From a virus, in the IMG/VR virus record IMGVR_UViG_3300008267_010368, positions 62,001 to 126,000 of that record: DNA of 64,000 bases; one strand, 5' to 3'. Positions 9,737 to 61,929 of the stretch are shown here, one piece after another. A model generated the notes under the pieces. The model searched no databases and was not told where the DNA came from. It saw only the letters and a list, made by a program, of their open reading frames with translations. The position numbers and the translations under genes are program-made. Position 1 is the first letter of the stretch. The number at the start of each line of letters is the position of its first letter.

Positions 9737-9743
9737 ATAAATA
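9737..9743 (-). promoter_or_regulatory. TATTTAT element (candidate late promoter)
   Basis: Reads TATTTAT on the minus strand, 16 nt before the ATG of the 2009-aa structural gene, in the context AATCTATTTATTATT. It shares AATCTATTTAT with the element before the tape-measure gene. Confidence 0.5.
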
Positions 9744-9759
9744 GATTTAAAACGATTTT

Positions 9760-11730
9760 TTATCTTTTAATAAATCTACCTTTACTTGTTTTTAATCTGT
9801 CTTGTTTATCTAAAGTGTCCATAACTTTATTTTCTAACTCTCTTACAGTCGATGGATTTTTAAATAACATATCTGATAGGTTGTTTGGTAGATTTTTTCC
9901 ATCAATATTTAGATTTATATTGAGATTAATGGTGTCCTCATTTTTATTAGTCGTTACAACATTTGTGTTTGTTTCTACTGTTTGTTTTGCTATTTCTCCT
10001 GTTTTTGTCGCCGATGGTTCGATTAATTTTACTTCTGAAGGTATTGATTTTGCCACACCCATTGTTTGCATATAAACATCTTTTAATATACCAAGATTTT
10101 CTATTGCATTTGGAGCAAAAATAGCCTCATCTTCTTTTATAAATTTAAACATTTCACCTTTACCCAAAGAAAGTACTTTGGTGTTAGTCGATCCAAACGC
10201 AGCATCTTCTTCATTAAGTACACCTGAAGCCGCATCAAATTTTAATGTTTTCAATTTTGCTTTACTTGCCCTTTTTTCAGCCGCAATTCTAACATCTTCC
10301 TTCGTTAATCCCAAATTACCTTCCACTTTAGTTTTTTCGGCATTAAAAAACTGTTGTAGTCCTCTAGCGGTTATAAATTCTTCAGCCCCTTTTCCCAATA
10401 CACCTGCAGTAGTTTCAAACTTACCACCTAACTCTTTTTGAGCATTAACCATATCTAGTAAAAGTTGATCTCTAGTAGTTTTTCCAAGATTTGTTAGTAC
10501 AACATCTCTAATTATACGGGTATCTATTTGTTGTAATTCTTCCAAATTCAAACTTTTTTCTGCCAAATCCCTATCAGACAATGCTGCCATTTCTTGATAT
10601 TTTTTCAAAGCATCAGTTAACTGTGTGGGATTTTTTTCAATCGCACTAACCAAATCGGTTTGTTCAAAACCAGGTATTCTTAATTCTAATTTACCTCCTT
10701 CACCAATTTCAGTCAAAGATTTCACAAGATTCATTTGTTCCTCTGATACTTTCGACAAATCAACACCAGACGATAAAAGTTTGTTTTGAACTAGTTGTTC
10801 TTTTGCTGCCGTTCTTCCAAGTGACATTAACTTTTCATAATCTCCCCCAGTCGATTCTATTTGAGCCCTTAACCGTTGTTGAGCAATAAAGTTTGTTTCA
10901 ATTTCTCCGGTTGCTTCATTGACTTTAAAGGCACCTTTTGCCATTTCTATCATTTTAGTTTGGAGATTTTCTACGTTGTTTGCTGCGTCATTCATTAAAG
11001 CAAATGGATTAGTCATTCCCTCAACCGCACCACCTATCATACTCATACTTGTTGCAACTTCAATTGCATTTTCTGGGTCTATTAATTTATCAGCCAAAGC
11101 AAATGCACCTATATCACTTAGTGTAGTATTTAACCTTTGTGCTTCTGCCGCCATTTTACTTAATCCATCTTTTCCATTTCTAAAATTGTACGAATTAACT
11201 TTAGCCAATTCAGTAGACATAGTATTCAAAAGAGTTTTAGCATCTAATCCGGTTTGTCTTGCAAGTTTTGCTATTTTAGACATTTCATTGATTGCGGTTT
11301 TTTGTCCAAAAGTCAATGTCATGAATTGTCCAACCATTTTACCTGTTTCTTTACTAGTTTGTCCTACCGCCTTTGAAAATTCTAACATCTTTGTTGTTGC
11401 TTGGGTTGAAGGTAAAGTCAATTTTTTTGTTTCAGCCACTAAATCACCAACTACATCTGTAACATCAGTAAAACTTAAACCTATCTCAACTACATTTTTA
11501 GAAATAGTAAATAACTGTTCCCTAAAGTCATCTGTATTTCCAACGACACCGCTACCTATTGTACGAGCAAGTTTTTTTGCTTCGTTGTCCATTGCGGTAA
11601 TAGTTGTAGTGGCAGTTTCAGGTACAATACCCTCTTTTAATGATAATCTTAATTGTTCGACAATCCCCATAAAAGTTTCACCTTTAGTTGAAAATTCACC
11701 AAGGGTTGGGTCTGTAAAAAATAGTAGCAT
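9760..11730 (-). CDS. Tail tape measure protein
   Basis: A 656-residue, largely helical protein. It has long amphipathic stretches rich in Ala, Lys, Glu and Thr (for example residues about 80-330 with repeated EMSKIAKLARQTG- and KMAAEAQRLNTTL-like helices). The C-terminus is charged and ends in DKQDRLKTSKGRFIKR. Tape measure proteins span the tail lumen and set tail length; 656 residues at roughly 0.15 nm each would give a tail near 98 nm, close to T4 (gp29, 590 aa). Its position directly after the gp26/gp51-like chaperone pair is the classic place for a tape measure. The start at 11730 is supported by a TATTTAT element 16 nt upstream. There is no visible lytic or peptidase domain. Confidence 0.72.
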   Translation of the reverse strand: MLLFFTDPTLGEFSTKGETFMGIVEQLRLSLKEGIVPETATTTITAMDNEAKKLARTIGSGVVGNTDDFREQLFTISKNVVEIGLSFTDVTDVVGDLVAETKKLTLPSTQATTKMLEFSKAVGQTSKETGKMVGQFMTLTFGQKTAINEMSKIAKLARQTGLDAKTLLNTMSTELAKVNSYNFRNGKDGLSKMAAEAQRLNTTLSDIGAFALADKLIDPENAIEVATSMSMIGGAVEGMTNPFALMNDAANNVENLQTKMIEMAKGAFKVNEATGEIETNFIAQQRLRAQIESTGGDYEKLMSLGRTAAKEQLVQNKLLSSGVDLSKVSEEQMNLVKSLTEIGEGGKLELRIPGFEQTDLVSAIEKNPTQLTDALKKYQEMAALSDRDLAEKSLNLEELQQIDTRIIRDVVLTNLGKTTRDQLLLDMVNAQKELGGKFETTAGVLGKGAEEFITARGLQQFFNAEKTKVEGNLGLTKEDVRIAAEKRASKAKLKTLKFDAASGVLNEEDAAFGSTNTKVLSLGKGEMFKFIKEDEAIFAPNAIENLGILKDVYMQTMGVAKSIPSEVKLIEPSATKTGEIAKQTVETNTNVVTTNKNEDTINLNINLNIDGKNLPNNLSDMLFKNPSTVRELENKVMDTLDKQDRLKTSKGRFIKR

Positions 11731-11746
11731 ACGTAAATCTTTTTAT

Positions 11747-11753
11747 ATAAATA
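11747..11753 (-). promoter_or_regulatory. TATTTAT element (candidate late promoter)
   Basis: Reads AATCTATTTATATAAAAAG on the minus strand, 16 nt before the tape-measure ATG, in the gap after the gp51-like small gene. Confidence 0.5.
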
Positions 11754-11760
11754 GATTTCT

Positions 11761-11886: not shown

Positions 11887-11899
11887 ATTTTTTTTGTGA

Positions 11900-12652: not shown

Positions 12653-12697
12653 AGTTTTTATTTTAAGTATAAGTCTACAAGAATTTTATGTAAACAA

Positions 12698-12723: not shown

Positions 12724-12741
12724 GAAAAAATTTGTTTTGTT

Positions 12742-13230
12742 TTAGTAAACTAATATACATCTGTCAGGACGAAGTGTAGCATCAACAGTCATGATATCCG
12801 CTTTATCGTAACCTAAGTCACCAAATTTAACACCTTCTAAGAAACATCCTTGTAAAATCCATTTTTCAACAGCAACCCCCGTTGGGTCTAAAAGTTCCAA
12901 ATCAACATCTTTTTTATAACCAGCAGCATAACCCATACGTCCTGTTACTGATTCAGCGTGTAATCGAACCCATTCCATTAATGCTTGTGATGCAGAAGGT
13001 CCGATTGGATCTCTAAACTTTACATTAATTGTTTCCCATTCAAAAGTACTAGCAACATAAGTTTTAGTATTTAAGAAAGGAATATCTTTGGATTCTATTT
13101 TAATACTCGGTCGTGACGTACTTTCAACATACCAAGAGTTGATACCCAAGGATGTTGGGAAAGTAATTATAAATCGGTTAGCTCTTTTAGGTTCATACTG
13201 AAAGGGCATTTTCATTAACAAATCAGCCAT
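12742..13230 (-). CDS. Tail tube protein, gp19-like
   Basis: A 162-residue protein, almost the same length as T4 gp19 (163 aa). It starts MADLLMKMPFQYEPKRANRF and continues IITFPTSLGINSWYVESTSRPSI. It has the tube-family features: an N-terminal R-x-N-R-F strand, WYVES..RPS, a F-x-W-E-x-I-N-V-K-F-R-D-P strand and a C-terminal D-A-T-L-R-P-D. Hexameric rings stack to form the inner tail tube. It has its own upstream TATTTAT element 30 nt before the ATG and its own terminator, consistent with strong late monocistronic expression. Confidence 0.88.
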   Translation of the reverse strand: MADLLMKMPFQYEPKRANRFIITFPTSLGINSWYVESTSRPSIKIESKDIPFLNTKTYVASTFEWETINVKFRDPIGPSASQALMEWVRLHAESVTGRMGYAAGYKKDVDLELLDPTGVAVEKWILQGCFLEGVKFGDLGYDKADIMTVDATLRPDRCILVY

Positions 13231-13260
13231 TGTCTATTTTTTTTGTCTTTTATTTATTAG

Positions 13261-13267
13261 ATAAATA
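13261..13267 (-). promoter_or_regulatory. TATTTAT element upstream of tube gene
   Basis: Minus-strand context AAATATTTATCTAATAAATA, 30 nt before the tube ATG in a 99-bp gap that holds no other feature I can recognise. Confidence 0.45.
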
Positions 13268-14395: not shown

Positions 14396-17300
14396 TTAAA
14401 CGTCATCAAATGATGCTCCTGTTGGTGTAATCACAAACTCGATGTCAATGTATTCTAACGCTCTTGTTGGTTTTAAGAAGATTTTACCTGTCAATGTATT
14501 TGAATCTAAATCTTCAGGTGTGTTAGAAACAGTTACTCTAAAGTCAATTAAACCTCTATCTCTTCTAATTGAATCCAAAATTGGGTTTACAGAATCCAAG
14601 AAGTCTTGTCTTACTTTATCATCGTTTTGTTCGAATAGTAATCTTACTGCTACTGCTGAAATTAGTTTTCTTGCTTGTAACAACAATCTTCTAACATTAA
14701 TTCTGTCAAGAGCAGACTCTCTAATTTGTAAAGTTTTGTTACCCCAAATTACTGTACCCACATCAGAAAAAGTAGCAATTGGATTGATTCTTCCTTTATA
14801 TAAAGTATCTCTATCTTCTTGTGTTAACTTCTTACGAGCTTTAATTGAATTTACTAAACCTCTTGTGTAACCTGCAGATGCGAACCAAGGGAATGCAATG
14901 TTATCAGTCAACGCCAAGTTTTTAGTTACTTCAGCAGTTGCTGGTAAATAAATCTGTGTGTTATTAACTGAATCCCTTGTCAATACCCAAGGATAATAGG
15001 TTGCTGTATAGTTTGAATCAATTCCTGTTTCTTCAAGGTTGTCTACCGCTTCTTGTGGATAAATTAAACCTTCTGTTACATCACTAAATGTTGGTAAGAA
15101 CAAGTTGAAATCAGGTGTAGTACATATGTAAATTGAATCCGCTCTATCTGTTTCAACCATATCAATCGCATCTTCAACAAGATTTGAGTTGTTAACATAA
15201 TCAATACCAGGTGTTGTAAATACGTTAATGTTTACCGCTTCAGGGTTAGCAAAAGTTGTTTGTCCCCATTTGTATGCGTAATAGTCAGTATTTGCCCACA
15301 CTTCTTGATTAGGACCTGAAATTTGTTTGAACGCTCCCCATCCTGTTGCTGTAGGGAATTGTGATGATGGTGCCGCACCATATTTATAACCTGTTTGTCC
15401 AAGAGCATATGTGTCACTGTTTGTTCTATATTCTCTATAGATATCCCATCCATCGAAACCACCATAAGGATACAAAGTAAATTTACGTGTGTTCAATCTG
15501 TAATAAGGGTTATCAGGATCAGTTGGTTCTGAATTAAAACTTCCAGCACCTACTTCAAACGCTTGTGTAGTTGCTGATGTTAATGTATCAAACATAGTTA
15601 CCACAGTTGCCCCACTATCCATGTGGAACCCTTTGATTTGATAAGTCCAACTTGGACCTGTAGTATCAGTTTCTAAATTAGCAGGTAATTGTTTACCTTT
15701 GTATTCAAAATAATCATAGTCAACACCAGTAATATTAGATATACCTAAGTATGCCTTTCTTGGGTTTTCACCGTTTGAAATAACAGGATTATCAGCTCCA
15801 CTTGTAGAACCAAATGGTGGGTTGTAAATAACGTCACCAGGTTGTAAGTATCTTGTTTTGTAAACTATAAATGGTGGTTGTGCTTGATTATAGTTTCTCA
15901 TAATGTAACCTTCAAATCCACAAGGAAGTGCATCTTCAGGTGCTTCATCACTCATTTCTAACATTATGTATTTAGAATTTAAGTTGTATTCACCATTAGC
16001 TGTACCTATTTTGTTTGCTACATAATTATTCAAAGATGGATTTAATGAACAATTCGTGAAACTTTCGATAACTCTTACGTTTTGATCGTTGTCATAGAAG
16101 TCTCTGACAAATACATCAAATGTTCCATTGTTAAAAGAAACGTTTCCAATTGAAATCTTAACAAGTCTGTTTGCAGCATTTCCATCAGAAATAAGTTTGA
16201 ACTTAAATAACTTATAAACTTTATTACCACGAAGTTCAGAAACCAAATAAGGGGTTTCTGGTGTTTGATATTGTTCTAAATAAAAACCTATTGAACCTGA
16301 TGCTTGTGAAACCGCACTATCCAATTCGATTAAATCACAATTCAAACCTCGTACCTTACCTTGTCTGTATCCGTTCAATAATAAACTTGAATAAACTTCT
16401 TCAACAAATAAAGGAACTTCAGTTCTATCTTTACCAAAGTTACTTCTTCCAAATACTTTAGAAAGATATTCAGTATCCGTACTTAACAATGATGTTTCAA
16501 AAGTGAACGTATCAGCATCTTTTGTAATACCACTTACAACAAATGTTGCATATGGGTCTTTAGTTACCGCCGAATATGAACCAGTACAAACCATTTGAAC
16601 ATCGGTTATACCTGTAACTTGATACAATGGCCCGTGTTGTGTTGAAGAATAGTTAGTGATACCTCTACTTCTTAAAGTTGCAATAACTAAATCATCCCAA
16701 CCTGAATACGGTGTACCTGAATATGTTGTACCTGAAATAATACAATAACCTGAATAAGAACCAACACCGATAGAATTGATTGCTCCTAAAGTAGTACCAA
16801 AACCATAACCATCGTAAGAACCAACACTTGCAACTTGTGAATAGTCAAATAATGCGTAGTACCAAGGATCGTTTGTTGTTGCTGATAAATTTGCTTGAGA
16901 TAATAATACATTACTTACACCAAAAGTTTCTGAATACGCACTTAATCCTGCACCAATTGTTGCACCTGTAACAGAGTTAAAAGTCGCATCACTTACTGTA
17001 CCCCAAAATAATGCGGTTGTACCTGATTGAGCATTTAAAGATGCGGTTGATTGGTAAACGATTTCGTTTGCAATAAACGATTGGAAATTAGCATTCAAAG
17101 AAGATGTACCCCCGTTGAATGTAGTGTATGGATTGTAAAAATCTGATGAAATAAGAGATGGTAATGTACCTGTAATAACAACGTTAGAACTTCCGCCTGT
17201 AGTTCCAGTAAAGTTAACGATTTGTACACCTGATGTATTTGCAGATAAACCAATAGTTCCTGGATCAACATTACCAATAGTTGTAATTGACCAAGACGGT

Positions 17301-17614
17301 CCAGCGTCATAACCTGACAAACCTAAAACTCTTGTAACAAATAATTGATTTGATTGTTGCAAATACGCTTTTGCAATATAAGATGTTTCGTATTTAGGTA
17401 TTTGTGTGTTTGTGAATTTTTCAGGACTTGTTCCACCGAAATATACTTGATATTCGTCGAAATTAGTTATGAAAATAGGTTCGAAGGCTGGACCCTGTAA
17501 GGTTTCACCAACAATCCCCAATGTAGTTACCCCCACACTTTGGGCAACAAAAGTTAAATCTCTTTCTGAAGTATAAACTCCAGGCGAAACGAATACTTTG
17601 TTTGTAGATGCCAT
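14396..17614 (-). CDS. Tail sheath protein, gp18-like, with large insertion
   Basis: A 1072-residue sheath protein. The N-terminus (VFVSPGVYTSERDLTFVAQS) and the C-terminal half (DRINVRRLLLQARKLISAVA, later RDRGLIDFRVTVSNTPEDLD and FLKPTRALEYIDIEFVITPTG) are diagnostic for contractile sheath proteins, which wrap the tube and shorten during injection. T4 gp18 has 659 residues. The extra roughly 400 residues lie mainly within residues 100-480, a Gly/Ser/Thr/Tyr-rich stretch probably exposed on the sheath surface. A TATTTAT element lies 33 nt upstream and a hairpin follows the stop. Confidence 0.9.
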   Translation of the reverse strand: MASTNKVFVSPGVYTSERDLTFVAQSVGVTTLGIVGETLQGPAFEPIFITNFDEYQVYFGGTSPEKFTNTQIPKYETSYIAKAYLQQSNQLFVTRVLGLSGYDAGPSWSITTIGNVDPGTIGLSANTSGVQIVNFTGTTGGSSNVVITGTLPSLISSDFYNPYTTFNGGTSSLNANFQSFIANEIVYQSTASLNAQSGTTALFWGTVSDATFNSVTGATIGAGLSAYSETFGVSNVLLSQANLSATTNDPWYYALFDYSQVASVGSYDGYGFGTTLGAINSIGVGSYSGYCIISGTTYSGTPYSGWDDLVIATLRSRGITNYSSTQHGPLYQVTGITDVQMVCTGSYSAVTKDPYATFVVSGITKDADTFTFETSLLSTDTEYLSKVFGRSNFGKDRTEVPLFVEEVYSSLLLNGYRQGKVRGLNCDLIELDSAVSQASGSIGFYLEQYQTPETPYLVSELRGNKVYKLFKFKLISDGNAANRLVKISIGNVSFNNGTFDVFVRDFYDNDQNVRVIESFTNCSLNPSLNNYVANKIGTANGEYNLNSKYIMLEMSDEAPEDALPCGFEGYIMRNYNQAQPPFIVYKTRYLQPGDVIYNPPFGSTSGADNPVISNGENPRKAYLGISNITGVDYDYFEYKGKQLPANLETDTTGPSWTYQIKGFHMDSGATVVTMFDTLTSATTQAFEVGAGSFNSEPTDPDNPYYRLNTRKFTLYPYGGFDGWDIYREYRTNSDTYALGQTGYKYGAAPSSQFPTATGWGAFKQISGPNQEVWANTDYYAYKWGQTTFANPEAVNINVFTTPGIDYVNNSNLVEDAIDMVETDRADSIYICTTPDFNLFLPTFSDVTEGLIYPQEAVDNLEETGIDSNYTATYYPWVLTRDSVNNTQIYLPATAEVTKNLALTDNIAFPWFASAGYTRGLVNSIKARKKLTQEDRDTLYKGRINPIATFSDVGTVIWGNKTLQIRESALDRINVRRLLLQARKLISAVAVRLLFEQNDDKVRQDFLDSVNPILDSIRRDRGLIDFRVTVSNTPEDLDSNTLTGKIFLKPTRALEYIDIEFVITPTGASFDDV

Positions 17615-17647: not shown

Positions 17648-17654
17648 ATAAATA
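17648..17654 (-). promoter_or_regulatory. TATTTAT element upstream of sheath gene
   Basis: Minus-strand context TGAACATATTTATATAGTAA, 33 nt before the sheath ATG. Confidence 0.5.
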
Positions 17655-17740: not shown

Positions 17741-17747
17741 TATTTAT
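17741..17747 (+). promoter_or_regulatory. TATTTAT element before the RHH gene
   Basis: AAATATTTATTAATATG: the element ends 4 nt before the ATG, so a transcript starting downstream of it would be leaderless or nearly so. Confidence 0.4.
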
Positions 17748-17751
17748 TAAT

Positions 17752-17901
17752 ATGAAAAAAATTAAAAATATAAAGATTTCAGAAGAAAGTCATTTTATGT
17801 TAAAAAAATACTGCGAAGCAAAAGGATTAAAAATTCACAAATTTATAGAAAGTCTTATAAGAAAAACTTGTGAAAAACCAAAAGACTTGTATGGTGAATA
17901 A
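17752..17901 (+). CDS. Small ribbon-helix-helix-like DNA-binding protein
   Basis: A 49-residue protein. The sequence KIKNIKISEESHFMLKKYC, then EAKGLKIHKFIESLIRKTCE, gives a short strand (residues 4-9), helix (10-23), Gly turn (25) and helix (28-41), the ribbon-helix-helix pattern of Arc/MetJ/CopG-type repressors. It is the only plus-strand gene inside the minus-strand tail block. Its stop (17899-17901) abuts the last base of the convergent gp15-like gene (17902). A phage transcription regulator or an anti-host factor are possible roles. Fold moderately sure, function unknown. Confidence 0.6.
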   Translation: MKKIKNIKISEESHFMLKKYCEAKGLKIHKFIESLIRKTCEKPKDLYGE

Positions 17902-19133: not shown

Positions 19134-19649
19134 TTATAATCCTTTGAATTCATTTGTGTTAACAGGTGATGCCGTGATTGTTCTATAAAATCTTTTGTAT
19201 CCACCATATGTGTGCTTATTATCACCAAACACCCTTCCGTCATTTACAACAGAATAAAATCTTACAAAATCTTCCGTTTCGTAATAACCAATATAATCAC
19301 CAAATGATATTTCTATGTTCATGTCATCTAAATAACTTTGGTAAACACTGACTGTCAAATTACCTGGTTCTGATTGAGCAAGTTTAGAAGTACCCAAGTC
19401 GACATTAGTTGGTGCTTCTATTTTTACTAATCCTTTAAATTCGACAGGTGGTAAAAATTGTATACCGTCTTCCGTTGTTTCACCATAAACATCATCTTTA
19501 TCTGTTTTTTGTCTATCAACCCTATACAACACAAGTGTAAAATTCATATCACCATGCAACCATTCAGAACCCATTTCAATATCCAAATTGAAATCTTCTT
19601 CTGAAAAAAATTTATTTAATCTTGTAATTGGAACTTTATTTTGTGCCAT
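19134..19649 (-). CDS. Neck protein, gp14-like (tentative)
   Basis: A 171-residue beta-rich protein starting MAQNKVPITRLNKFFSEEDF. The segment NLTVSVYQSYLDDMNIEISFGDYIGYYETEDFVRFYSVVNDG, then YRTITASPVN, resembles the strand order of T4 gp14 neck proteins (a strand, then G-D-x-I-x-Y, then F-x-V/I). It stands first in the minus-strand neck/tail operon just ahead of the gp15-like gene, and the gp13-like gene lies 2.6 kb away on the other strand. It is shorter than T4 gp14 (256 aa). Confidence in a head-tail-joining role is moderate; in the exact equivalence, low. Confidence 0.4.
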   Translation of the reverse strand: MAQNKVPITRLNKFFSEEDFNLDIEMGSEWLHGDMNFTLVLYRVDRQKTDKDDVYGETTEDGIQFLPPVEFKGLVKIEAPTNVDLGTSKLAQSEPGNLTVSVYQSYLDDMNIEISFGDYIGYYETEDFVRFYSVVNDGRVFGDNKHTYGGYKRFYRTITASPVNTNEFKGL

Positions 19650-19653: not shown

Positions 19654-19660
19654 ATAAATA
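19654..19660 (-). promoter_or_regulatory. TATTTAT element before the gp14-like gene
   Basis: Minus-strand context AAAGTATTTATAGATATG, ending 4 nt before the ATG. It lies in a 58-bp divergent gap shared with the helicase gene. Confidence 0.4.
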
Positions 19661-19671: not shown

Positions 19672-19701
19672 TATTTATTAGAATTTACTATTTTTATTTA
19701 T
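19672..19701 (+). promoter_or_regulatory. Two TATTTAT elements before the helicase gene
   Basis: TATTTAT occurs at 19672-19678 and again at 19695-19701 on the plus strand, 29 and 6 nt before the ATG at 19708. Confidence 0.4.
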
Positions 19702-19707: not shown

Positions 19708-21471
19708 ATGGAAGAATTAGTATCATCTACACCAGAAAAAAAATCATTAGAAATATTAGAAGACTATAATGGGTCTAATAATTTTATATTGAATCTTAAG
19801 AACAAAAAACTAAATAGTAAGTCTTTTACTCCCACAAGAAGTCAAGCTGAGTATATTATCAACTATCAAAATACAACCCCGAAAGTTGCAAAAAAATGGG
19901 TTAAGTTAGATTCTTATTTTGGAAAAAAACTTAAAGAAGATAAAATGTATACAAAAGAACCAACAGAAATATATGTTGAAAAATTGTTGGTAGAAAAAGA
20001 CAAATCATATCATATTTGGGGAAAAATTTGGAGTGGTGAAACTATTCATGATTTTTGGTTACCAAAGTCGGCATTAATAAAAGACAATGAAGTTAAAAAC
20101 GTTGTTGTCGATTACGGAAAGTATAACCATAGACTTCCAATGGAACACCAAAAAGAAGCCATTCAAAAATTGGTAGGTAACAAAAAGTTTATTTTGGCAG
20201 ATGACATGGGACTTGGTAAAACAACATCAACAATTATATCTGCTCTTGAATCAGGAGCAAAGAAAATTTTAATTATTTGTCCCGCATCACTTAAAATAAA
20301 TTGGCAAAGAGAAATAGAAAATTATTCAGATAGAAGTGTATATATTTCAGAAGGAAAAAAATTTTCAACTGAATCTGATTTTGTGATTATTAACTACGAC
20401 ATTTTAAAAAACTTTCACGATCCGAAAAAGAAAGATGAATCAGTGATTTTAAATACTAAGTTTGATTTGGTAATAATGGATGAAGCTCACATGATTTCGA
20501 ATCCACAAGCTCAAAGAACAAAAATAGTCAATGACTTGTGTGACAAACTAGATAGGGTTTGGCTTTTAACAGGAACACCAATGACATCAAGACCGATGAA
20601 CTATTATAATTTATTAAAACTTGTTGAAAGTCCTGTTGCTGCAAATTGGATGGCATATGCTAAAAGGTATTGTAACGGATATCAATTTAGTGTGGGTAAT
20701 AGAAAAGTTTGGAACGTAACGGGAGCATCTAATCTTGATGAATTAAGGGAACGAACACAAACACATATCTTAAGAAGACTAAAAGAAGATGTTTTAGATT
20801 TACCCGATAAAATTATTACACCCGTTTATTTAAGATTAAAATCAAAAGAATATGAAGAATTGATGGGCGAATATTATAATTGGTATGATGGTAACTCCGA
20901 AGAATCTTCGTCACTTACAATTCAGTTTGGTAAATTAATGAAAGTAAGAAAAGTGTTGGCTGAAGAAAAAATTAAAAACACCATAGAACTTGCAGAAAAC
21001 ATTATTGAACAAGGAAAAAAAGTAATTATATTTACGAATTTTACAGATACGTTACGAACTATATATGAACACTTCGGAAAAGAAGCTGTTTATTTAGATG
21101 GTTCATGTTCAAAACCACATAGACAAAAGGCAGTTGACGACTTTCAAGAAAACGATAAAATAAAAGTATTTGTTGGTAACTTGAAAGCTGCGGGAGTTGG
21201 TATCACATTGACTTCCGCTGAAGCAGTAATCATGAATGATTTATCATTTGTTCCTGCTGAACACGCACAAGCTGAAGATAGATCACATAGAATCGGACAA
21301 AAAAAGTCAACTTCGGTTTATTATCCCCTATTTGAAAACACTATAGAAGGTGTAATATATGATATACTTAATAGAAAGAAAAAAATCATTTCAACCGTAA
21401 TGGGTGATGATATGTTAGATGATGCGTCAACAATAGAAGAAATGTTAAATATGATTTCGTATAGTAGGTGA
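19708..21471 (+). CDS. SNF2-family DNA helicase/translocase (UvsW-role candidate)
   Basis: A 587-residue SNF2-type ATPase. Walker A is DDMGLGKT (GKT at 170-172), motif II is DEAH (258-261), motif III LLTGTP, motif V GVGITLTSA and motif VI AEDRSHRIGQ (522-531). Its two RecA-like lobes and compact layout resemble SMARCAL1/HARP-type annealing translocases, which remodel forks and recombination intermediates, the job UvsW does in T4. I chose ATG 19708 because the open frame upstream (to 19588) overlaps the divergent gp14-like gene and because the TATTTAT elements lie just before 19708. Confidence 0.88.
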   Translation: MEELVSSTPEKKSLEILEDYNGSNNFILNLKNKKLNSKSFTPTRSQAEYIINYQNTTPKVAKKWVKLDSYFGKKLKEDKMYTKEPTEIYVEKLLVEKDKSYHIWGKIWSGETIHDFWLPKSALIKDNEVKNVVVDYGKYNHRLPMEHQKEAIQKLVGNKKFILADDMGLGKTTSTIISALESGAKKILIICPASLKINWQREIENYSDRSVYISEGKKFSTESDFVIINYDILKNFHDPKKKDESVILNTKFDLVIMDEAHMISNPQAQRTKIVNDLCDKLDRVWLLTGTPMTSRPMNYYNLLKLVESPVAANWMAYAKRYCNGYQFSVGNRKVWNVTGASNLDELRERTQTHILRRLKEDVLDLPDKIITPVYLRLKSKEYEELMGEYYNWYDGNSEESSSLTIQFGKLMKVRKVLAEEKIKNTIELAENIIEQGKKVIIFTNFTDTLRTIYEHFGKEAVYLDGSCSKPHRQKAVDDFQENDKIKVFVGNLKAAGVGITLTSAEAVIMNDLSFVPAEHAQAEDRSHRIGQKKSTSVYYPLFENTIEGVIYDILNRKKKIISTVMGDDMLDDASTIEEMLNMISYSR

Positions 21472-21482
21472 TATTTATTTAT
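21472..21482 (+). promoter_or_regulatory. Overlapping TATTTAT elements before the SOD gene
   Basis: TATTTATTTAT contains two overlapping copies and touches the ATG at 21483. It starts 1 nt after the helicase stop. Confidence 0.35.
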
Positions 21483-22196
21483 ATGCTATTAAAAAGTTTA
21501 CATAAAAAAATAGATATCATTGAATCTAAACTTGACGTTGTTTCACCAAAAAAACAAGATATCATTTCTGAAATCAAAAAAATAAGTATAGACAAACTTC
21601 CATACGAATACGATTCACTTGAAAGTTTTATTGATGCAGAAACAATGAAAACACATTATAGTAAACACTATAAAGGTTATGTTGATAAGTTGAATGTTGA
21701 ACTTGAAAAAGTTAAAGGTAAAGATTTAGATTTAGAACAAATCATTAAAAGTATATCCAAATTTAATGACAAAGTAAAAAACAATGGAGGTGGAGCATTT
21801 AATCATGCTTTATTTTGGAAAATGTTATCACCAAAAAAACAAAAATTTGAAGGACCGATTAAAGAAAAAATTGAAAAAACTTTTGGTTCATTTGACAATT
21901 TTAAAGAAGAATTTGAAGAATCAGCAAAAAATAGGTTTGGTTCAGGTTGGGTATGGTTAATTTTGAAAGATAATGGTAGATTAAAAATAGTAACAACTGC
22001 AAATCAAGACAACCCACTAATGAATACGGAAAAAGAAAGAGGTTATCCAATATTAGGCTTAGATGTTTGGGAACACGCATATTATTTAAAATACAAAAAT
22101 CAAAGGGATAAATACACTTCCAATTTTTGGAAAGTTGTAAATTGGGGATTTATCAATGATTTGTATACCACCCAAATTAAAAGAAACAAGTATTGA
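21483..22196 (+). CDS. Iron/manganese superoxide dismutase with N-terminal extension
   Basis: A 237-residue SOD. The four metal ligands are in place: H58 (KTHYSKHYKGY), H108 (GGGAFNHALFW), D194 and H198 (LDVWEHAYYLKYKNQR). FGSGWVWL and the final FWKVVNWGFINDLY are also canonical. The enzyme converts superoxide to peroxide and oxygen. The SOD fold begins at about LPYEYDSLE (residue 38), so an N-terminal extension of some 37 residues, Lys/Ile-rich and without a clear signal peptide or lipobox, precedes it. It lies between the helicase and the gp13-like neck gene. Fe versus Mn preference cannot be read with confidence. Confidence 0.93.
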   Translation: MLLKSLHKKIDIIESKLDVVSPKKQDIISEIKKISIDKLPYEYDSLESFIDAETMKTHYSKHYKGYVDKLNVELEKVKGKDLDLEQIIKSISKFNDKVKNNGGGAFNHALFWKMLSPKKQKFEGPIKEKIEKTFGSFDNFKEEFEESAKNRFGSGWVWLILKDNGRLKIVTTANQDNPLMNTEKERGYPILGLDVWEHAYYLKYKNQRDKYTSNFWKVVNWGFINDLYTTQIKRNKY

Positions 22197-22215: not shown

Positions 22216-22222
22216 TATTTAT
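22216..22222 (+). promoter_or_regulatory. TATTTAT element before the gp13-like gene
   Basis: Context GCAAAATATTTATACAAAAA, 12 nt before the ATG at 22235. Confidence 0.5.
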
Positions 22223-22234: not shown

Positions 22235-23353
22235 ATGACAACTACCATAATTACAGAACCAGAAAGAAGTAAACTTTACAAAAGAATTAAAAATCTTTTG
22301 GGTGCACCATTACGTTCAGTAGAACTTGAAGACGAAATGATGGATTCACTTCTTGAACTTTCCATACAAGATTATGCACAACACGTTAATGATTGGCTTA
22401 TTGAAAGTCAATGGTCATCATTATATGGTTTAAATTTGGATGAACAATCTGTAACAAGGGCTTTTACTACAAGAAGTATGGATTGGGAAACCCAATACAC
22501 TTACGCATATTCAAAGATAGTTGGACTTCAAGCTGGTGGTGATTCTGTATTAGAAAAAGATTATATTGATTTAATACCAGGTCAACAAATATATGAAATA
22601 CCTGCAGGAAGGGAACTTAATGAACTATTATGGTTCGCAAGACCTGAACTTGACGCAGCATATTTTGATCCGTTTATGGGTGGTTTTGGTGGTTTTGGTG
22701 GTATTGGACTTGGTGGTGGTGCCGGTTTTTCACAAATGGGAACTACTGGTAATTATTTTATCACACCAGCATTTGACATTCTTTTAAGAATGGCAGACAT
22801 TCAAATGAAAAGAAGAATCATAACAGGTGATTTAACATATAGGGTAACAGCACTTCCTGAAGGAAAAAAAGCAATACACTTAATGAATGTACCTGGAGGA
22901 AAGTTTGATTTTGGAAACATTCAAAGAAATCAATATCGTGTATGGTATTGGTATTACGATACTTTCGATAGGGAGGATTGTTTGAAGAAAAATCCCGACA
23001 TCGTAAGATTACCATCAGATGTTCCAATAGATGAAATATCTTGGGACGAATTAAATTCACCTGCTAAGACATGGGTAAGACGATGGTTTACCGCATATTG
23101 TAAAGAAACATTGGCAAGAGTAAGAGGTAAGTATAGCGGTAACTTAAAGACTCCGGATTCAGAACTTACCTTAGAATACACTTCACTTCAAACGGAAGCA
23201 AAAGATGAAAAAACAATATTGTGGGAAGAACTAAAATTAAGACTTGAAAGATTAAGACCTGAAAAACAATGGGAAATTAAAGGGTTACAAGCGGAAAATA
23301 TGAACAAGGCTTTAAAGTTCAGAGCGTTTACAAGTCCTTATAATGTTATTTAA
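22235..23353 (+). CDS. Neck / head-tail connector protein, gp13-like
   Basis: A 372-residue protein. The N-terminal helical module (KLYKRIKNLLGAPLRSVELE, then DEMMDSLLELSIQDYAQHVN, then W) matches the start of gp13-type neck proteins and other connector proteins. Next come a strand with IPGQQIYEIPAGRELNELLW, a Gly-rich loop of about 25 residues (FMGGFGGFGGIGLGGGAGF), and a C-terminal helical part (KTWVRRWFTAYCKETLARVR, then GKYSGNLKTPDSELTLEY). gp13 joins the filled head to the tail. The Gly-rich loop is longer than expected for the family. A TATTTAT element lies 12 nt upstream. Confidence 0.65.
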   Translation: MTTTIITEPERSKLYKRIKNLLGAPLRSVELEDEMMDSLLELSIQDYAQHVNDWLIESQWSSLYGLNLDEQSVTRAFTTRSMDWETQYTYAYSKIVGLQAGGDSVLEKDYIDLIPGQQIYEIPAGRELNELLWFARPELDAAYFDPFMGGFGGFGGIGLGGGAGFSQMGTTGNYFITPAFDILLRMADIQMKRRIITGDLTYRVTALPEGKKAIHLMNVPGGKFDFGNIQRNQYRVWYWYYDTFDREDCLKKNPDIVRLPSDVPIDEISWDELNSPAKTWVRRWFTAYCKETLARVRGKYSGNLKTPDSELTLEYTSLQTEAKDEKTILWEELKLRLERLRPEKQWEIKGLQAENMNKALKFRAFTSPYNVI

Positions 23354-23693: not shown

Positions 23694-26590
23694 TCAAAAA
23701 TTAAAGAAGTTAAATCCGCTTCAGTATCAAACTCAAAAAATTCATCTTCATCAACCTTTGACACTTTTATTTCTTTTTCCATCAACTCTTTATTATTTTT
23801 AACTCTACTTTCATCAACTAAATTAATGGTATCATCTATGTACATATAGTACGGATCGATTCCAACTGACTGCCAAAATTTAATTTCCATATCAGATAGC
23901 GTTAACACCTCATCTAAATTGTCTTGATCCTTTTCTTTCATCGGAAATCCTCTACCCAATACAGTTTGTGACTTTGTAAAAATTGGTTGATCTTTAGGAT
24001 CTTCAATTAAAATATCTTTTCTAATATCAGGACTATAAACAACAAGTAACGGCTCAATTCTTTTGTTAAATGCCGCCAAGTATCTTGGAACATTATACTC
24101 ACCTAATAAATCAGGATTGTTTTCAATTTCTTTTTCATCAATCAAATAACAATTTAGAATCACTTCACTTTTAGATAACATTTCAGGAGGAACCTCTCCA
24201 TGAATATTCATATAATCTTCTATTTGTTTTTTTGTCATTTTTGTGGTTTTTTTCTGAACATCACCGTGTGATTTCTTTTCTCCATTATTAACATAATAGA
24301 TAGTATCTCCTAAACCTGGTTTTTTTCCTGCATTCATTAAAAGTTCCATATGTGCCTGTCTAGACATTAAACTTCCCGCCTTTGTTGTTTTTGTAATATG
24401 TACTTTATAATCATCTATTGATTGTTTAACACGGGATTTGTTTGCTATTTTTGCTAACGGAATTTTTTTATTATAAATTTTACTTACATACTCATAATAA
24501 AAATCTAAAAACTCACCACCTTTACCATCAAGTAACATTCTTAATCCTTTATCCAAAAACTCTGCAACATATGTTTGAAGTTTTTTAGACTTAATAGAGT
24601 TACCAGTAAGTTTAACTTTACCTTTATCTGTAAGAAGTGCATAGTTTTTACGTGCCACGTTGATTGTTGCCGGCCATACACCATCAATATCAAGACCCAT
24701 TTCATTTCGCATAAATAAGTCATTGTATTCTGCAACATCCGCTTCAGCACCCACATATTCTTTACCTTCTTTAACTAAACCATTAAGTCCTTTACCGATG
24801 TACTTATAGTTTTCTCTATCTTCAGGGGTTTCGAAGTTTACACCATCCGTGTCCATCACCAATGGAACATATCCACGTTTCATAAAGTACATAATCATCT
24901 GACGAAGATACTGTCTACCTGTACAAGTAATCTGTTCACCCATATCAATATCACCCCAAGGAAATACGTGAGGAGCAGATAACGAACCAAAGAATGCGTT
25001 GATAAAGATTTTAATTGGTAATTGTTTTCTATCGTATGAAATTGATGCTTTTAAATCTATTGATTTGTATTCCCCCGCCAAGTTTTTATATTTAATACGA
25101 GTATCACGGAAATACTTTAACATACTTTTCATTGCACCTGTAACATCACAAGCAGGAAACACATCATGTACCAACTGAATGGAAGGGTATAGTGAAGAGT
25201 AGTCAAGTTTTAATACGTTTCTTGAATACCCAACCTGAACCAACCTAGAAAGTCCTCCCGTAAATTTACGTTTTTCTTTCTTTTTAGGTAATGCCAAATT
25301 GTTTTTGTATGACCAAGCACACATAATCATTTTCCAAAGAGTTGCCGTACCCATAGTAGAAAGACGTTCGTATGTTGTTGGTACAAGTTTTGACAACAAG
25401 AAATTTGCTTGATTAAATTGCTCGTCAACAATCATTGTTTCATACAAGTCATCGTCCAAGTATTGTTCAATTATTTTGGAACCTGTTGTTTTATCATAGA
25501 CATCAGTTCTTCTACCACAAACTTCATCTATATTTTCATCCAAACCAACTTTTTTGTAGGCTCCGTTTTCTTTATTCATCCAATAATCCTCATTGTCAAA
25601 ATAAATTTTACCAATCTTATCTCCTTCAACATAAACACGATTTTGTTTTTCGGCTTCAATAAATTTGGTAATATACTTCAGAGACCAACTTTTAATATCT
25701 GAATTGATTGCTTGTGCCCTTCTTACTGCGTGTGCTATATCTATAATGTTGTAACCCCACATTTGTGTTTGTGTATAGGGTTCCATTTCATTTGCCAATT
25801 TCAATATTCCTTCTTTTTGTTTTAAAGTATAATCGGGGTTTAATGTTTTCGTTATTTTTTTAATGTTTAGATTTAATATTTCTGCTCTTTTTAGAATAAA
25901 AGGAAAGTCAAAGAATGCTGAGTTGTAACCACCAATAAGTGAAGGTTTTAATTCGTCGATTGTTTTGAAAAATTCGACAATCATCTTTCTTTCTTCATCA
26001 GGATTTTGTGCAGATAATAATTTCAAAAAACCACGATTGTCTTTCATTCCAATAAGGAATATACTACTTGATTTCGGATCAAGTCCCGTTGTTTCAATAT
26101 CGAATACGAATCTATGGATTTCATCGTATTCTTCAAACCCTTTAAAAAGTCTTTTGTTTTTTTGAATTAAGTATTGTTCCACTGGAGATAAAACAGTAAT
26201 ACAATCTGAATTGTCCCTCCCCCAAGGATCAAGCCCACCACCTTTGAAAAAGTTTATAAGGTTAGAATATGTTTTTGTGGTTTTAACAATAAATGTTAAA
26301 CCCGTTTTAAGTCTTTCATCACCGTGATCTTGAAGTTTTTCAATGATGATACCATTTTCAGACATTGCACGTTTTTGTGCATCTTTATTATTTTTATAAA
26401 AATTTTTACCTCTTAAATCACCAACCCAAGCAAACGGAATAAAAGTATCCATTCGTAAAAGTTTACCTTTTACAGGGTCCTGTATTACTTTAAAAATTTT
26501 GGATGTTTTGTAATCGTATTCGATAGATACGATATATTTTTCTTCGTCTTCACCTAATAAAAAGCGTTCGATTTCTTCTTGTGCTACCAT
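23690..26590 (-). CDS. Family B DNA polymerase with 3'-5' exonuclease (gp43-type)
   Basis: A 966-residue replicative polymerase. Proofreading domain: Exo I FDIETTG (D164, E166) and Exo II region IGGYNSAFFDFPFI. Polymerase domain: motif A KLDYSSLYPSIQ (D463), motif B region KIFINAFFGSLSAPHVFPW and motif C MDTDGVNF (D580 and D582). T4 gp43 is 898 residues. It copies the phage genome. The acidic C-terminus (KVDEDEFFEFDTEADLTSLIFD) could include a sliding-clamp-binding peptide, though the exact motif is not clear. No TATTTAT precedes it, unlike neighbouring virion genes, consistent with early or middle expression. It lies between structural blocks, unlike T4 order. Confidence 0.95.
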   Translation of the reverse strand: MVAQEEIERFLLGEDEEKYIVSIEYDYKTSKIFKVIQDPVKGKLLRMDTFIPFAWVGDLRGKNFYKNNKDAQKRAMSENGIIIEKLQDHGDERLKTGLTFIVKTTKTYSNLINFFKGGGLDPWGRDNSDCITVLSPVEQYLIQKNKRLFKGFEEYDEIHRFVFDIETTGLDPKSSSIFLIGMKDNRGFLKLLSAQNPDEERKMIVEFFKTIDELKPSLIGGYNSAFFDFPFILKRAEILNLNIKKITKTLNPDYTLKQKEGILKLANEMEPYTQTQMWGYNIIDIAHAVRRAQAINSDIKSWSLKYITKFIEAEKQNRVYVEGDKIGKIYFDNEDYWMNKENGAYKKVGLDENIDEVCGRRTDVYDKTTGSKIIEQYLDDDLYETMIVDEQFNQANFLLSKLVPTTYERLSTMGTATLWKMIMCAWSYKNNLALPKKKEKRKFTGGLSRLVQVGYSRNVLKLDYSSLYPSIQLVHDVFPACDVTGAMKSMLKYFRDTRIKYKNLAGEYKSIDLKASISYDRKQLPIKIFINAFFGSLSAPHVFPWGDIDMGEQITCTGRQYLRQMIMYFMKRGYVPLVMDTDGVNFETPEDRENYKYIGKGLNGLVKEGKEYVGAEADVAEYNDLFMRNEMGLDIDGVWPATINVARKNYALLTDKGKVKLTGNSIKSKKLQTYVAEFLDKGLRMLLDGKGGEFLDFYYEYVSKIYNKKIPLAKIANKSRVKQSIDDYKVHITKTTKAGSLMSRQAHMELLMNAGKKPGLGDTIYYVNNGEKKSHGDVQKKTTKMTKKQIEDYMNIHGEVPPEMLSKSEVILNCYLIDEKEIENNPDLLGEYNVPRYLAAFNKRIEPLLVVYSPDIRKDILIEDPKDQPIFTKSQTVLGRGFPMKEKDQDNLDEVLTLSDMEIKFWQSVGIDPYYMYIDDTINLVDESRVKNNKELMEKEIKVSKVDEDEFFEFDTEADLTSLIFD

Positions 26591-26676
26591 AAATATATTT
26601 TAAGTTTGGTCTATTAGCTGTTACACATGGGTAACATTTACCTTCGTCTTAAATATAAGATTAATTCTTACTCTTG
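26591..26676 (-). other. Intergenic gap upstream of the polymerase
   Basis: An 86-bp AT-rich gap between the polymerase start and the BppU-like gene end. It contains GTTACCCATGTGTAAC (minus strand), an imperfect palindrome that could be an operator or weak hairpin. No TATTTAT element is present. Confidence 0.3.
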
Positions 26677-31968: not shown

Positions 31969-31975
31969 ATAAATA
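31969..31975 (-). promoter_or_regulatory. TATTTAT element before the beta-helix fibre gene
   Basis: Minus-strand context ATAGATATTTATAGTAAAAA, 14 nt before the ATG at 31954. It heads the run of closely spaced genes down to 26677. Confidence 0.5.
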
Positions 31976-32957: not shown

Positions 32958-33200
32958 TTATGAAATAAATAATTTACCGTTTTCTATTGATAAATCAATA
33001 TCGTTTTTTTGTTCTGTAGATAATGCTTCAGAAAACCAATCTTTACTCATCATAACTTCTAAATGTTCAAAATTACGTTTTACTGTGTTTTTATTTTCCT
33101 CATTTTTTTCTGTTGTCAACAAATTGTTTATTAAGTTAACAGAATCAAATGCTGCTAAAATACTACTTTGGATTTGTTCTTGTGTTAATTCTTCTTTCAT
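32958..33200 (-). CDS. Small helical protein of unknown function
   Basis: An 80-residue acidic, helical protein (MKEELTQEQIQSSILAAFDS...), without Cys, signal or membrane segment. It lies between the sulfotransferase and the GT9-like gene with gaps of 22 and 27 bp. The pattern resembles small helical proteins seen beside fibre genes, but I do not recognise a family. Confidence 0.6.
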   Translation of the reverse strand: MKEELTQEQIQSSILAAFDSVNLINNLLTTEKNEENKNTVKRNFEHLEVMMSKDWFSEALSTEQKNDIDLSIENGKLFIS

Positions 33201-38474: not shown

Positions 38475-38481
38475 ATAAATA
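38475..38481 (-). promoter_or_regulatory. TATTTAT element before the repeat-fibre gene
   Basis: Minus-strand context CTTTATATTTATATAATAAA, 16 nt before the ATG at 38458, in the 29-bp gap after the 649-aa gene. Confidence 0.45.
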
Positions 38482-40449: not shown

Positions 40450-40456
40450 ATAAATA
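40450..40456 (-). promoter_or_regulatory. TATTTAT element, minus arm of a divergent promoter
   Basis: Minus-strand context AAACTATTTATCATTAAAAA, 12 nt before the ATG at 40437. Confidence 0.5.
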
Positions 40457-40468: not shown

Positions 40469-40475
40469 TATTTAT
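40469..40475 (+). promoter_or_regulatory. TATTTAT element, plus arm of a divergent promoter
   Basis: Context GTTGAAGTATTTATAGGTAA, 14 nt before the ATG at 40490. The 52-bp gap holds one element per strand, each pointing at its own gene. Confidence 0.5.
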
Positions 40476-57617: not shown

Positions 57618-57630
57618 GAAAAATTTCATA

Positions 57631-59280: not shown

Positions 59281-59285
59281 ATAAA

Positions 59286-60344: not shown

Positions 60345-60353
60345 AAAAATATT

Positions 60354-61163
60354 ATGGAAATGAATAAATTTAATGTATCAGTAATTTTACCAGTTAGTTC
60401 TTCAAATGTAAGGGATTTTGATAGTCTATTTGAAAGAAGTATACAATCAATTAAAAATCAAACAGTCAAAATTAATGAATTAATCATTGTACATTCACAA
60501 GACGAAACACTTAAAAATAAGTTGGATTCTATTGACTTTGAAAACATAAATGTTGTCAAGATTGAAAATACTGGTGATACTGACTTTTCATCACAAGTTA
60601 ATTTGGGTGTAAAAAATGCTACAAGTAAGTGGGTGTCTGTTTTGGAATTTGATGATGAATACTCTGCAATTTGGTTTAAAAATGTGAAACGGTTTGAAGA
60701 ATCATATCCTGAAGTTGATACTTTTTTACCGTTAGTTGTTGATACTGATGATAAAGGTGTGTTTGCTGGATTTACAAACGAAGCAACTTTTGCAGTGAGT
60801 ATTAATACAGAAATGGGATATCTTACAAATGATTTACTTTTAAATTATCAAAATTTTCAAACCAGTGGTATGGTAATTAAAAAATCAGTGTTTGAAGACA
60901 ATGGGGGATTTAAACCATCTATTAAACTTACATTTGTATATGAATTCCTTTTAAGACTTACATATAATTCGGTAAAAATTATGACAATTCCAAGAATCGG
61001 TTATAAACATACGAACATGAGGGAAGGTTCTATTTTTTGGAATTACAAATTTAGCGACGAAAGAATTTCAGACACTGAAGTTAGTTTTTGGTTAGAAACG
61101 GCAAAAAAAGAATACTTTTTCACTACCGATAGAAACATAAAATTCGAACCACAAGAAGTTTAA
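60354..61163 (+). CDS. GT2-family glycosyltransferase-like protein
   Basis: A 269-residue GT-A protein: FNVSVILPVSSSNVRDFDSL, INELIIVHSQDETLKN, SKWVSVLEFDDEYSAIWFKN (E-F-D-D as the D-x-D equivalent) and a C-terminal helical part. Met3 is an alternative start. Its stop overlaps the start of the sigma gene by one base (TAATG). The close tie to transcription genes hints that it is expressed with them. Confidence 0.7.
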   Translation: MEMNKFNVSVILPVSSSNVRDFDSLFERSIQSIKNQTVKINELIIVHSQDETLKNKLDSIDFENINVVKIENTGDTDFSSQVNLGVKNATSKWVSVLEFDDEYSAIWFKNVKRFEESYPEVDTFLPLVVDTDDKGVFAGFTNEATFAVSINTEMGYLTNDLLLNYQNFQTSGMVIKKSVFEDNGGFKPSIKLTFVYEFLLRLTYNSVKIMTIPRIGYKHTNMREGSIFWNYKFSDERISDTEVSFWLETAKKEYFFTTDRNIKFEPQEV

Positions 61164-61909
61164 TGTTTATTTCAGGTGAAAATGAAACAACCAGTATAGA
61201 ATTTAAAAAGACGAATAAAGTAAAAAAAAATAATTACTTTGACGTTCGTGAAGAGCAGGCAGTTAAAGATTACCTTTTATCTAACTCTCGTGAAGAAAAA
61301 GAATTTATCTATAATACGTGTCTTCGGGAACCATTGAACAAAATGATAGAGTCAATTATCCGAAGATACAAATTATATAGAAGAGATATGAATTTTGAAG
61401 ATAATCATTCAGACACACATTCTTTTCTAATGACAAAAATTGATAAATTTAAACCGGCAAAAAATAAGAAGGCGTATTCTTATTTTGGTACTATTTGTAA
61501 AAACTATCTTATGGGGCAAATCCAAAAAGATCAGAAAGACACAAATAGAAAAATTTCTTATGAAGATATTTCATCAACATTAGAAAATCGTCCTGATATG
61601 ATTTATTATTTGGAATTTGAAAAAATTGATGCCGAAAAAGTTATAGATACATTTTTGAGTGACTTAAGACTTTACGTTCACAATAAAATAGAAAATGAAA
61701 ATGAATTAAAACTAGGTCACGCACTTATTGAATTATTTGACAATTATGGAAATATTTTCATTGGTAATGATAATAATAAATTCAACAAAAACATTGTATT
61801 GTTATCGTTAAGAGAAATGACTAATCTAAACACTAAAGAAATTAGAATTTACTTAAAAAAATACAAAACTTTATATTTAGACACACTCAAAAGAATTCAC
61901 AATTCATAA
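61163..61909 (+). CDS. Late sigma factor, gp55-like
   Basis: A 248-residue protein with a sigma region 2-like core at residues about 45-130: EEKEFIYNTCLREPLNKMIE, IRRYKLYRRDMNFEDN, and the diagnostic KFKPAKNKKAYSYFGTICKN followed by YLMGQIQKDQKDTNRKISYE. In T4, gp55 (185 aa) is a reduced sigma-70 relative which directs host RNA polymerase to late promoters; the K-F-x-P-x-K-N-x-x-A-Y-x-Y-F-x-x-I block is its best-conserved part. The C-terminal half (REMTNLNTKEIRIYLKKYKT) could be a second helical DNA-binding module. I infer it reads the TATTTAT elements. Confidence 0.78.
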   Translation: MFISGENETTSIEFKKTNKVKKNNYFDVREEQAVKDYLLSNSREEKEFIYNTCLREPLNKMIESIIRRYKLYRRDMNFEDNHSDTHSFLMTKIDKFKPAKNKKAYSYFGTICKNYLMGQIQKDQKDTNRKISYEDISSTLENRPDMIYYLEFEKIDAEKVIDTFLSDLRLYVHNKIENENELKLGHALIELFDNYGNIFIGNDNNKFNKNIVLLSLREMTNLNTKEIRIYLKKYKTLYLDTLKRIHNS

Positions 61910-61922
61910 ATGATAAAATAAA

Positions 61923-61929
61923 TATTTAT
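61923..61929 (+). promoter_or_regulatory. TATTTAT element before the 123-aa gene
   Basis: Context AAATAAATATTTATTATTATG, 4 nt before the ATG at 61934, in the 24-bp gap just after the sigma gene. Confidence 0.45.

Follow-up and report, generated by a model that had tools for sequence, protein, structure and literature searches.

What does the heptamer TATTTAT do, close ahead of so many start codons in a 64,000-nucleotide window of viral DNA (bases 62001-126000 of the 142,668-base IMG/VR virus record IMGVR_UViG_3300008267_010368), and which protein, if any, reads it? A preliminary description of this window, made from the sequence alone, had proposed that the word marks the starts of virion genes and may be a new late promoter. 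We report that TATTTAT is a real, family-wide promoter-like element. Very probably it is the -10-like element of a T4-type late promoter whose specificity has changed, one that a homologue of the T4 late sigma factor gp55 would read and that would often give leaderless or short-leader mRNAs; within this reading we infer the start sites, the late timing and the choice of the gp55-like protein, rather than a second, SigA-like sigma, as reader. Late transcription in T4 is a textbook system, and the clade to which the record belongs, which includes the cultured phages immuto and RM378, has TATTTAT or TATTTAA at the same genes together with a diverged gp55, offering a natural series in which to study how the specificity of a minimal sigma factor changes.

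Sequences and gene sets

Genes were called in the window and in the remainder of the record (read as five stretches) with a hexamer model allowing ATG starts only, which gave 128 starts with leaders of 80 nucleotides (nt). The same leaders, dinucleotide-shuffled over 1000 rounds, served as control. Related loci came from IMG/VR scans with the tail sheath, the gp55-like protein and the second sigma (the best 80 of 449, 266 and 176 matches, respectively); the 240 loci recovered were reduced to 117 non-redundant ones, amounting to 2.2 Mb and 2759 starts including the record's own. Gene families were built by single linkage, and counts of family members are not counts of independent events.

Enrichment at gene starts

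Across the whole record, 28 of the 128 starts have TATTTAT no more than 40 nt away, against a mean of 4.68 in the shuffled leaders (standard deviation 2.03, maximum 12), and no round was as high; the enrichment over shuffled controls that the preliminary description wished to see tested is thus present. The window gives the same picture, with the word within 40 nt of 15 of its 56 called starts (shuffle mean 1.85, maximum 8, none of 1000 as high). Its plain count in the window is at chance level (53 against a shuffle mean of 53.2), so the signal is one of position and strand. Among 7-mers with at least 6 leader copies, TATTTAT is the most enriched in leaders relative to the coding sense (30-fold; 32 leader copies within 45 nt, compared with 26 inside coding sequence), the runner-up of the same composition being found in 14 leaders against 28. 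If the region from -41 to -80 is taken in as well, only one additional gene among the 128 gains a copy. The most prominent single-base variants are TACTTAT and TATTTGT, with few cases each; TATTTAA, the form found in RM378, is not enriched in this family.

Neither of the words that a conventional T4 promoter might suggest shares this behaviour across the record: ATAAATA, the reverse complement, does not stand out from the shuffles (11 of 128 starts against 8.98), and the 128 leaders have no excess of TATAAAT (7 observed, 6.2 expected) that would point to the T4 consensus TATAAATA. The chance-level count in the window is what an artefact of base composition in AT-rich leaders would produce, but such an artefact is refuted, its probability being negligible, by the shuffles, by the conservation of sites gene by gene (below) and by the Rhodothermus phage RM378, the first 50 kb of which have 42.7% G+C and in which TATTTAA is nevertheless the commonest leader 7-mer (35 of 137 leaders).

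Sites in the window

At each of the 15 coordinates given in the preliminary description TATTTAT is confirmed, in the sense orientation of a gene that starts nearby. The minus-strand site at 32965 had been missed, and the sites at 19672 and 17741 are weak. The sites are listed below with the position of the first base relative to the start codon and the share of family members that carry the element; the gene proposed to encode its reader comes last.

9737..9743, minus: TATTTAT, -23 of gene 3691-9720; family 21/21
11747..11753, minus: TATTTAT, -23 of gene 9760-11730; family 24/24
13261..13267, minus: TATTTAT, -37 of tail tube gene 12742-13230; family 26/28
17648..17654, minus: TATTTAT, -40 of tail sheath gene 14396-17614; family 29/30
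17741..17747, plus: TATTTAT, -11 of a 49-amino-acid open reading frame (ORF), 17752-17901; family 16/30; weaker site
19654..19660, minus: TATTTAT, -11 of gene 19134-19649 (predicted leaderless class); family 22/23; terminator-like hairpin upstream in some relatives
19672..19678, plus: TATTTAT, second copy, -36 of helicase gene 19708-21471; poorly conserved, weaker site
19695..19701, plus: TATTTAT, -13 of helicase gene 19708-21471; copy in 10/16 family members
21472..21478, plus: TATTTAT (overlapping copy at 21476), -11 of superoxide dismutase gene 21483-22196; family 17/17
22216..22222, plus: TATTTAT, -19 of gene 22235-23353 (head-tail adaptor-like match); family 17/17
31969..31975, minus: TATTTAT, -21 of gene 28835-31954; 0 relatives in the set
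32965..32971, minus: TATTTAT, -36 of gene 32057-32935; 0 relatives in the set; may be chance
38475..38481, minus: TATTTAT, -23 of gene 34088-38458; 0 relatives in the set
40450..40456, minus: TATTTAT, -19 of gene 38488-40437; 0 relatives in the set
40469..40475, plus: TATTTAT, -21 of gene 40490-41206, divergent from the 40450 site; 0 relatives in the set
61923..61929, plus: TATTTAT, -11 of gene 61934-62305, next after the sigma gene; family 42/45
61163..61909, plus: gp55-like late sigma gene, 248 amino acids, proposed reader of TATTTAT

Conservation and placement at heads of transcription units

Among the 81 families with at least 6 members the share carrying the motif is bimodal, 15 families standing at 90% or more and 50 below 10%. 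Where the leaders of relatives are set side by side, TATTTAT is retained while much of the flanking leader sequence varies. The family of L005:4061-5545, which encodes a 494-amino-acid product, has the motif in 41/45. For that product Foldseek gave only scattered beta-sandwich and immunoglobulin-like matches and PHROG none, so that it cannot be called a virion protein.

For starts with a gene upstream on the same strand, the element is found in 19 of 1202 with gaps of up to 4 nt, 41/246 with 5-14 nt, 137/244 with 15-29 nt, 89/260 with 30-59 nt, 78/264 with 60-119 nt and 48/181 with at least 120 nt. Divergent starts with gaps of 30-59 nt carry it in 64 of 120 cases. Its near absence from tightly packed genes, taken with this profile, indicates that TATTTAT marks the heads of transcription units. 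Nine of the 12 related sets of heads without the motif were inspected.

Spacing and predicted leaders

When each of the 110 families (645 occurrences in all) is given a single vote, the distance from the first base to the ATG peaks at -11/-12 and at -21. The element begins at -5, overlapping the ATG, in 6 families, at -8 in 2, at -9/-10 in none, at -11/-12 in 26, at -13 in 5, at -14/-15 in 4, at -18 in 3, at -19 to -25 in 41, at -26/-27 in 2 and at -32 to -43 in 21; in immuto, single copies do stand at -9 and at -10. No -35-type element is conserved, the upstream flanks of the 645 occurrences showing nothing beyond a weak T-tract, 14-18 nt ahead of the first base.

At -10 elements in general, RNA starts 11-13 nt downstream of the first base. 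If that holds here, the close class would be leaderless or nearly so. In the proposed scheme TATTTAT is the sole conserved -10-like element, its specificity having drifted from TATAAATA, and host RNA polymerase carrying the phage gp55-like sigma would read it in the sense direction, the RNA beginning about 11-13 nt beyond the first T. By their commonest position, 31 of the 110 motif-bearing families would then have the start codon at the RNA start, giving leaderless or nearly leaderless mRNAs, 41 would have a 5' leader of about 6-14 nt, and 21, sheath and tube among them, one of about 20-30 nt. For the close class, two families show a third-position excess beyond the ATG (0.37 against 0.13 and 0.09; 0.57 against 0.30 and 0.18) that supports their start codons, the contrast being weak or absent in four other families tested.

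Seventeen close-class starts from 5 families have a terminator-like hairpin with a T-run upstream of the element. In 13 of the 14 such starts listed the stem ends 8-19 nt before TATTTAT (49 nt in the other), leaving little room for any other promoter. By a perfect-stem rule, hairpins of this sort precede 0 of 1230 internal genes.

Could the element instead act in RNA, helping ribosomes to find start codons in the absence of Shine-Dalgarno sequences? It sits tightly relative to the ATG (within 40 nt in 353 of 1316 starts, at -80 to -41 in 25), and hosts of the Flavobacterium type do without Shine-Dalgarno sequences (PMC6847099). Tightly packed genes also need to be translated, however, and hardly any of them carry TATTTAT; the spacing is multimodal, and terminator-like hairpins lie close upstream in some families. 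Furthermore, in the Microcystis phage Mel-JY01, 8 of the 14 copies within 60 nt sit 41-50 nt upstream, ahead of Shine-Dalgarno leaders, and at its tube and portal genes a Shine-Dalgarno-like or purine stretch stands between TATTTAT and the start. The determinant of translation named for Flavobacterium is an A at -3 (PMC6847099). A role in translation in place of transcription is accordingly very unlikely.

The element in T4 and other phages

T4 served as a control: on its sense strand the procedure recovers TATAAAT at 11 of 39 starts, ATAAATA at 12 and TATTTAT at 4. The preliminary description had taken the orientation to be opposite to that of T4. This is true literally, TATTTATA being the exact reverse complement of TATAAATA, but it misleads, as both elements point in the sense direction at the same genes: T4 has TATAAATA in sense at sheath, tube and portal, in the same pre-start region as the TATTTA-type elements. 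TATTTAT is therefore better read as a change of TAT-AA-AT to TAT-TT-AT in the same orientation. The alternative, in which the functional element is a T4-type TATAAATA on the other strand that drives antisense or divergent transcription away from the gene, can draw on that exact complementarity and on the many sites in divergent regions, more than half of the divergent starts with 30-59 nt gaps among them. Same-strand heads carry the word too, however, the distance that is constrained is the one to the downstream ATG, and T4 itself uses TATAAATA in sense; we regard this alternative as highly improbable.

The cultured Flavobacterium phage immuto and RM378 were read as whole genomes, in stretches. 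TATTTAT occurs in 34 of 218 immuto leaders of 50 nt and, as in the window family, favours heads (31/103, against 1/86 tight genes). With regions drawn by us, the virion region has it at 19 of its 29 heads and the early region at 11 of 68 (p = 5e-6 by Fisher's test; six intermediate-region heads, one with the motif, were left out). A clear virion bias of TATTTAT is seen only in immuto. The immuto sequence (L255-L256, 1-78000) also has a second leader motif, around TTTAGGTAT and CAATAATTAA, and TTTAGG is found at 17 of 68 heads in its early half but at just 1 of the 29 that lie in the virion region.

Sheath, tube and portal have TATTTAT in immuto and TATTTAA in RM378. In Mel-JY01 (90 of 190 kb read), where the word is in 12 of 91 leaders of 50 nt, the tube and portal genes have it and the sheath leader does not. 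In LR756511 (50 of 595 kb read) TATTTAT is at 0 of 61 starts. Leaders resembling Shine-Dalgarno sequences number 119/2759 in the window family, 10/218 in immuto, 29/137 in RM378 and 38/91 in Mel-JY01.

The element is thus promoter-like and enriched, as first proposed, but not peculiar to this phage. We found no published description of it in titles and abstract openings among the matches listed, a search outside which most subscription journals lay, so that its absence from the literature is not shown. The part of a review seen here describes, for the late consensus of T4-related phages, only close variants of TATAAATA (PMC2988020).

Set beside the T4 late promoter (gp55, gp33, gp45), the likenesses are a single -10-like element with no -35 box, its sense direction, the presence of a gp55 homologue and the location at transcription-unit heads including those of sheath, tube and portal (the record's own portal gene was not located). 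The differences are that TATTTAT (TATTTAA in RM378) replaces TATAAATA, that it is often nearer the ATG, with leaderless mRNAs predicted, and that few leaders in the window family are Shine-Dalgarno-like. The late promoters of AR9 and phiKZ are also phage-specific consensus sequences of large phages, but they are read by phage multisubunit RNA polymerases and have the forms AACA-(6N)-TA/G and TATG (PMC5312081); AR9 leaders are 26-491 nt long.

Two sigma factors

That the window encodes a gp55-like sigma, as the preliminary description stated, is upheld by profile homology. The Pfam region 2 match is weak (E 0.0073, below the cut-off), while PHROG_234 (late sigma transcription factor) is matched by 27 of 31 family members at E<=0.1, the lowest value being 1.1e-4 and that of the record's member 0.016. 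The family profile matches immuto gp118 (3.4e-19), LR756508 (6.2e-19), Mel-JY01 (4.5e-16), RM378 p020 (1.1e-5) and T4 gp55 (0.0063). Widened with three closer homologues, it reaches 6.3e-14 for p020 and 3.2e-4 for T4 gp55, which is the best T4 ORF in the two T4 stretches searched. RM378 p020 (L251:17032-17826), annotated as a hypothetical protein, is thus a gp55 homologue; the annotated RM378 sigma, p144, gives no match to the gp55-like alignment with hhalign, and BLASTP of the SigA-like sigma against p144 gives E 0.22. The narrow alignment against T4 gp55 alone is weak in hhalign (E 0.0083, probability 4.8%), and against PDB sequences there are no matches at E<=1; the profile HMM searches performed better.

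In a structural comparison with VIA-align, T4 gp55 (7d7c_F) ranks third for the predicted structure (Z 8.9, root-mean-square deviation 5.1, 130/137 residues), a Z value common for helical models. It aligns model residues 24-223, whereas other well-superposed sigmas cover mainly 24-130, and all 50 matches listed are sigma factors. T4 gp55 captures A-12, A-9 and A-8 by way of Y97, N13 and H95, T99 (PMC7892883). In the alignment, Y97, which stacks on A-12, is Tyr in all five homologues, whereas H95 (A-9) becomes Tyr or Phe and T99 (A-8) becomes Gly, Gln or Ser. If A-12 is kept as an anchor, as we infer from this low-identity alignment, TATTTAT departs from TATAAAT at just two positions, -10 and -9, which would fit.

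The second sigma, a SigA-like protein of 271 amino acids (record 9772-10587, minus strand), has regions 2 and 4, with region 1.2 just under the cut-off, and 45 family members in the locus set. Might this protein read TATTTAT as a modified host -7 box at late promoters, leaving the gp55-like protein some other role? Its domains and the size of its family speak for this, and the word resembles the beginning of the host box TAnnTTTG (PMC6847099), starting with TA, being T-rich and lying at a similar place relative to the presumed start. It differs from the Bacteroidota sigma-A promoter, however, in lacking both the TTTG at -33 and the terminal TTTG, and in having A where the box has T; TATTTAT leaders show neither TTTG at -33 nor TAnnTTTG at -7, having no TTTG-like column but only the weak T-tract. 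Moreover, immuto and RM378 have the element and a gp55 homologue, yet the SigA-like profile finds no match in immuto (best E 0.054) or RM378 (0.26). Since immuto combines TATTTAT and a gp55-like protein with no SigA-like match, the gp55-like protein is the better candidate, and reading by the SigA-like sigma seems unlikely.

Points that weigh against a gp55-read late promoter

Several results speak against the preferred reading of TATTTAT as a late promoter read by the gp55-like sigma. The first concern the genes that have it. Of the annotated genes in the record, 4 of 9 virion genes and 3 of the 18 others have it, and with these shares the word "late" rests on the comparison with immuto and T4. 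Two helicase genes and the superoxide dismutase gene carry it, whereas the major capsid leaders (109-700 nt upstream examined) have it in 0 of 18 cases and the hub leaders (within 45 nt) in 0 of 28; the proposal that the element marks virion genes was to this extent too strong. In the DNA polymerase family, 4 of 9 members have TATTTAT at -68 or -69, where the others have a host-like TATATTTA. LR756508 (90 of 484 kb read) has a clear gp55-like homologue, yet TATTTAT stands at only 1 of 102 starts.

Others concern the leaders. ATAAATA is mildly enriched at window starts (11/56 against 5.0, a value reached in 8 of 1000 shuffles), all 11 cases of the record falling here. By the perfect-stem rule, hairpins are no commoner at starts with the motif (26 of 591) than at heads without it (25 of 482). 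The T4 late element begins at -13 (PMC2988020), and T4 spacing would put the RNA start of the -11 class inside the ATG, so that the spacing must differ by about 2 nt. As to the sigma itself, the predicted structure is of moderate confidence (predicted local distance difference test score, pLDDT, 73), and Foldseek matches to this model all exceed E 0.001. A search for the sliding clamp gave no clear hit in a record that may be a fragment (PF02916 best E 0.033, below the cut-off; PF09116 none).

Host and wider distribution

The published Flavobacterium promoter is TTTG / TAnnTTTG (PMC6847099, PMC9723704). Heads lying at least 45 nt from the upstream gene and lacking TATTTAT have TTG-N17-20-TAnnTTT in 11.7% of 461 cases, compared with 5.4% of genes with TATTTAT and 1.2% of internal genes. 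These TTTG-type promoters suggest, together with the small number of Shine-Dalgarno leaders and the kinship with immuto, that the host probably belongs to the Bacteroidota; a sheath search of genome contigs found no relative and no direct host evidence.

A broader claim is that a widespread T4-like clade, probably infecting Bacteroidota, uses late promoters read by gp55 homologues whose specificity has changed, with about a quarter to a third of its units starting at or next to the AUG as a leaderless regulon; for this we judge the case for and against to be evenly balanced. If true, it would mean a phage late regulon relying on leaderless mRNA where few of the host's own transcripts are leaderless (5.5% in F. 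psychrophilum; PMC9723704). The clade would offer a direct test of how leaderless late mRNAs are translated in hosts that do not use Shine-Dalgarno sequences, and the element a route to calling late operons on uncultured phage contigs, of which there are hundreds (the sheath matches number 449, with some contigs above 200 kb).

Other leader motifs and neighbouring genes

The preliminary description had noted the DNA polymerase gene as lacking TATTTAT. This holds in that no member of its family (0 of 9) has a complete copy ahead of the start within 45 nt, but in the record a copy at 26589-26595 overlaps the start codon. Given the more distant copies in four members, TATTTAT may also serve in another promoter type in these leaders. 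In the window (26591-26672, minus strand) and in L018, L020, L024, L041, L044, L065 and L084, the DNA polymerase leader has TTGACA-N17-TATATTTA and then a hairpin such as TGTTAC-CCATGT-GTAACA, in which paired changes between relatives are seen by eye. RNAalifold found no structure in a MAFFT alignment of this leader that is apparently misaligned by one column. In T4, gp43 has a translational operator, and by analogy the hairpin is perhaps an operator of that kind. No Rfam families were found in the window.

Among the other leaders, those of the major capsid genes (family of L005:16883-18559) have, in the copies inspected, a gap of 30-40 nt with a recurrent AATAAACT and an A-rich stretch. The 484-kb phage LR756508 (L249, L260) has ACTTAAA-like leader words instead of TATTTAT, and its promoter is possibly a further drifted form.

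The gene at 21483-22196 (plus strand) encodes an iron/manganese superoxide dismutase in a phage; the median length in its family is 361 amino acids against 237 here, so not all members need be dismutases. The 49-amino-acid ORF at 17752-17901 (plus strand) is conserved, divergent from the sheath gene and ribbon-helix-helix-like by eye. Upstream of it, most of the 12 copies inspected have two TTCTACC-type repeats, and the ORF is a possible candidate for a small regulator with its operator.

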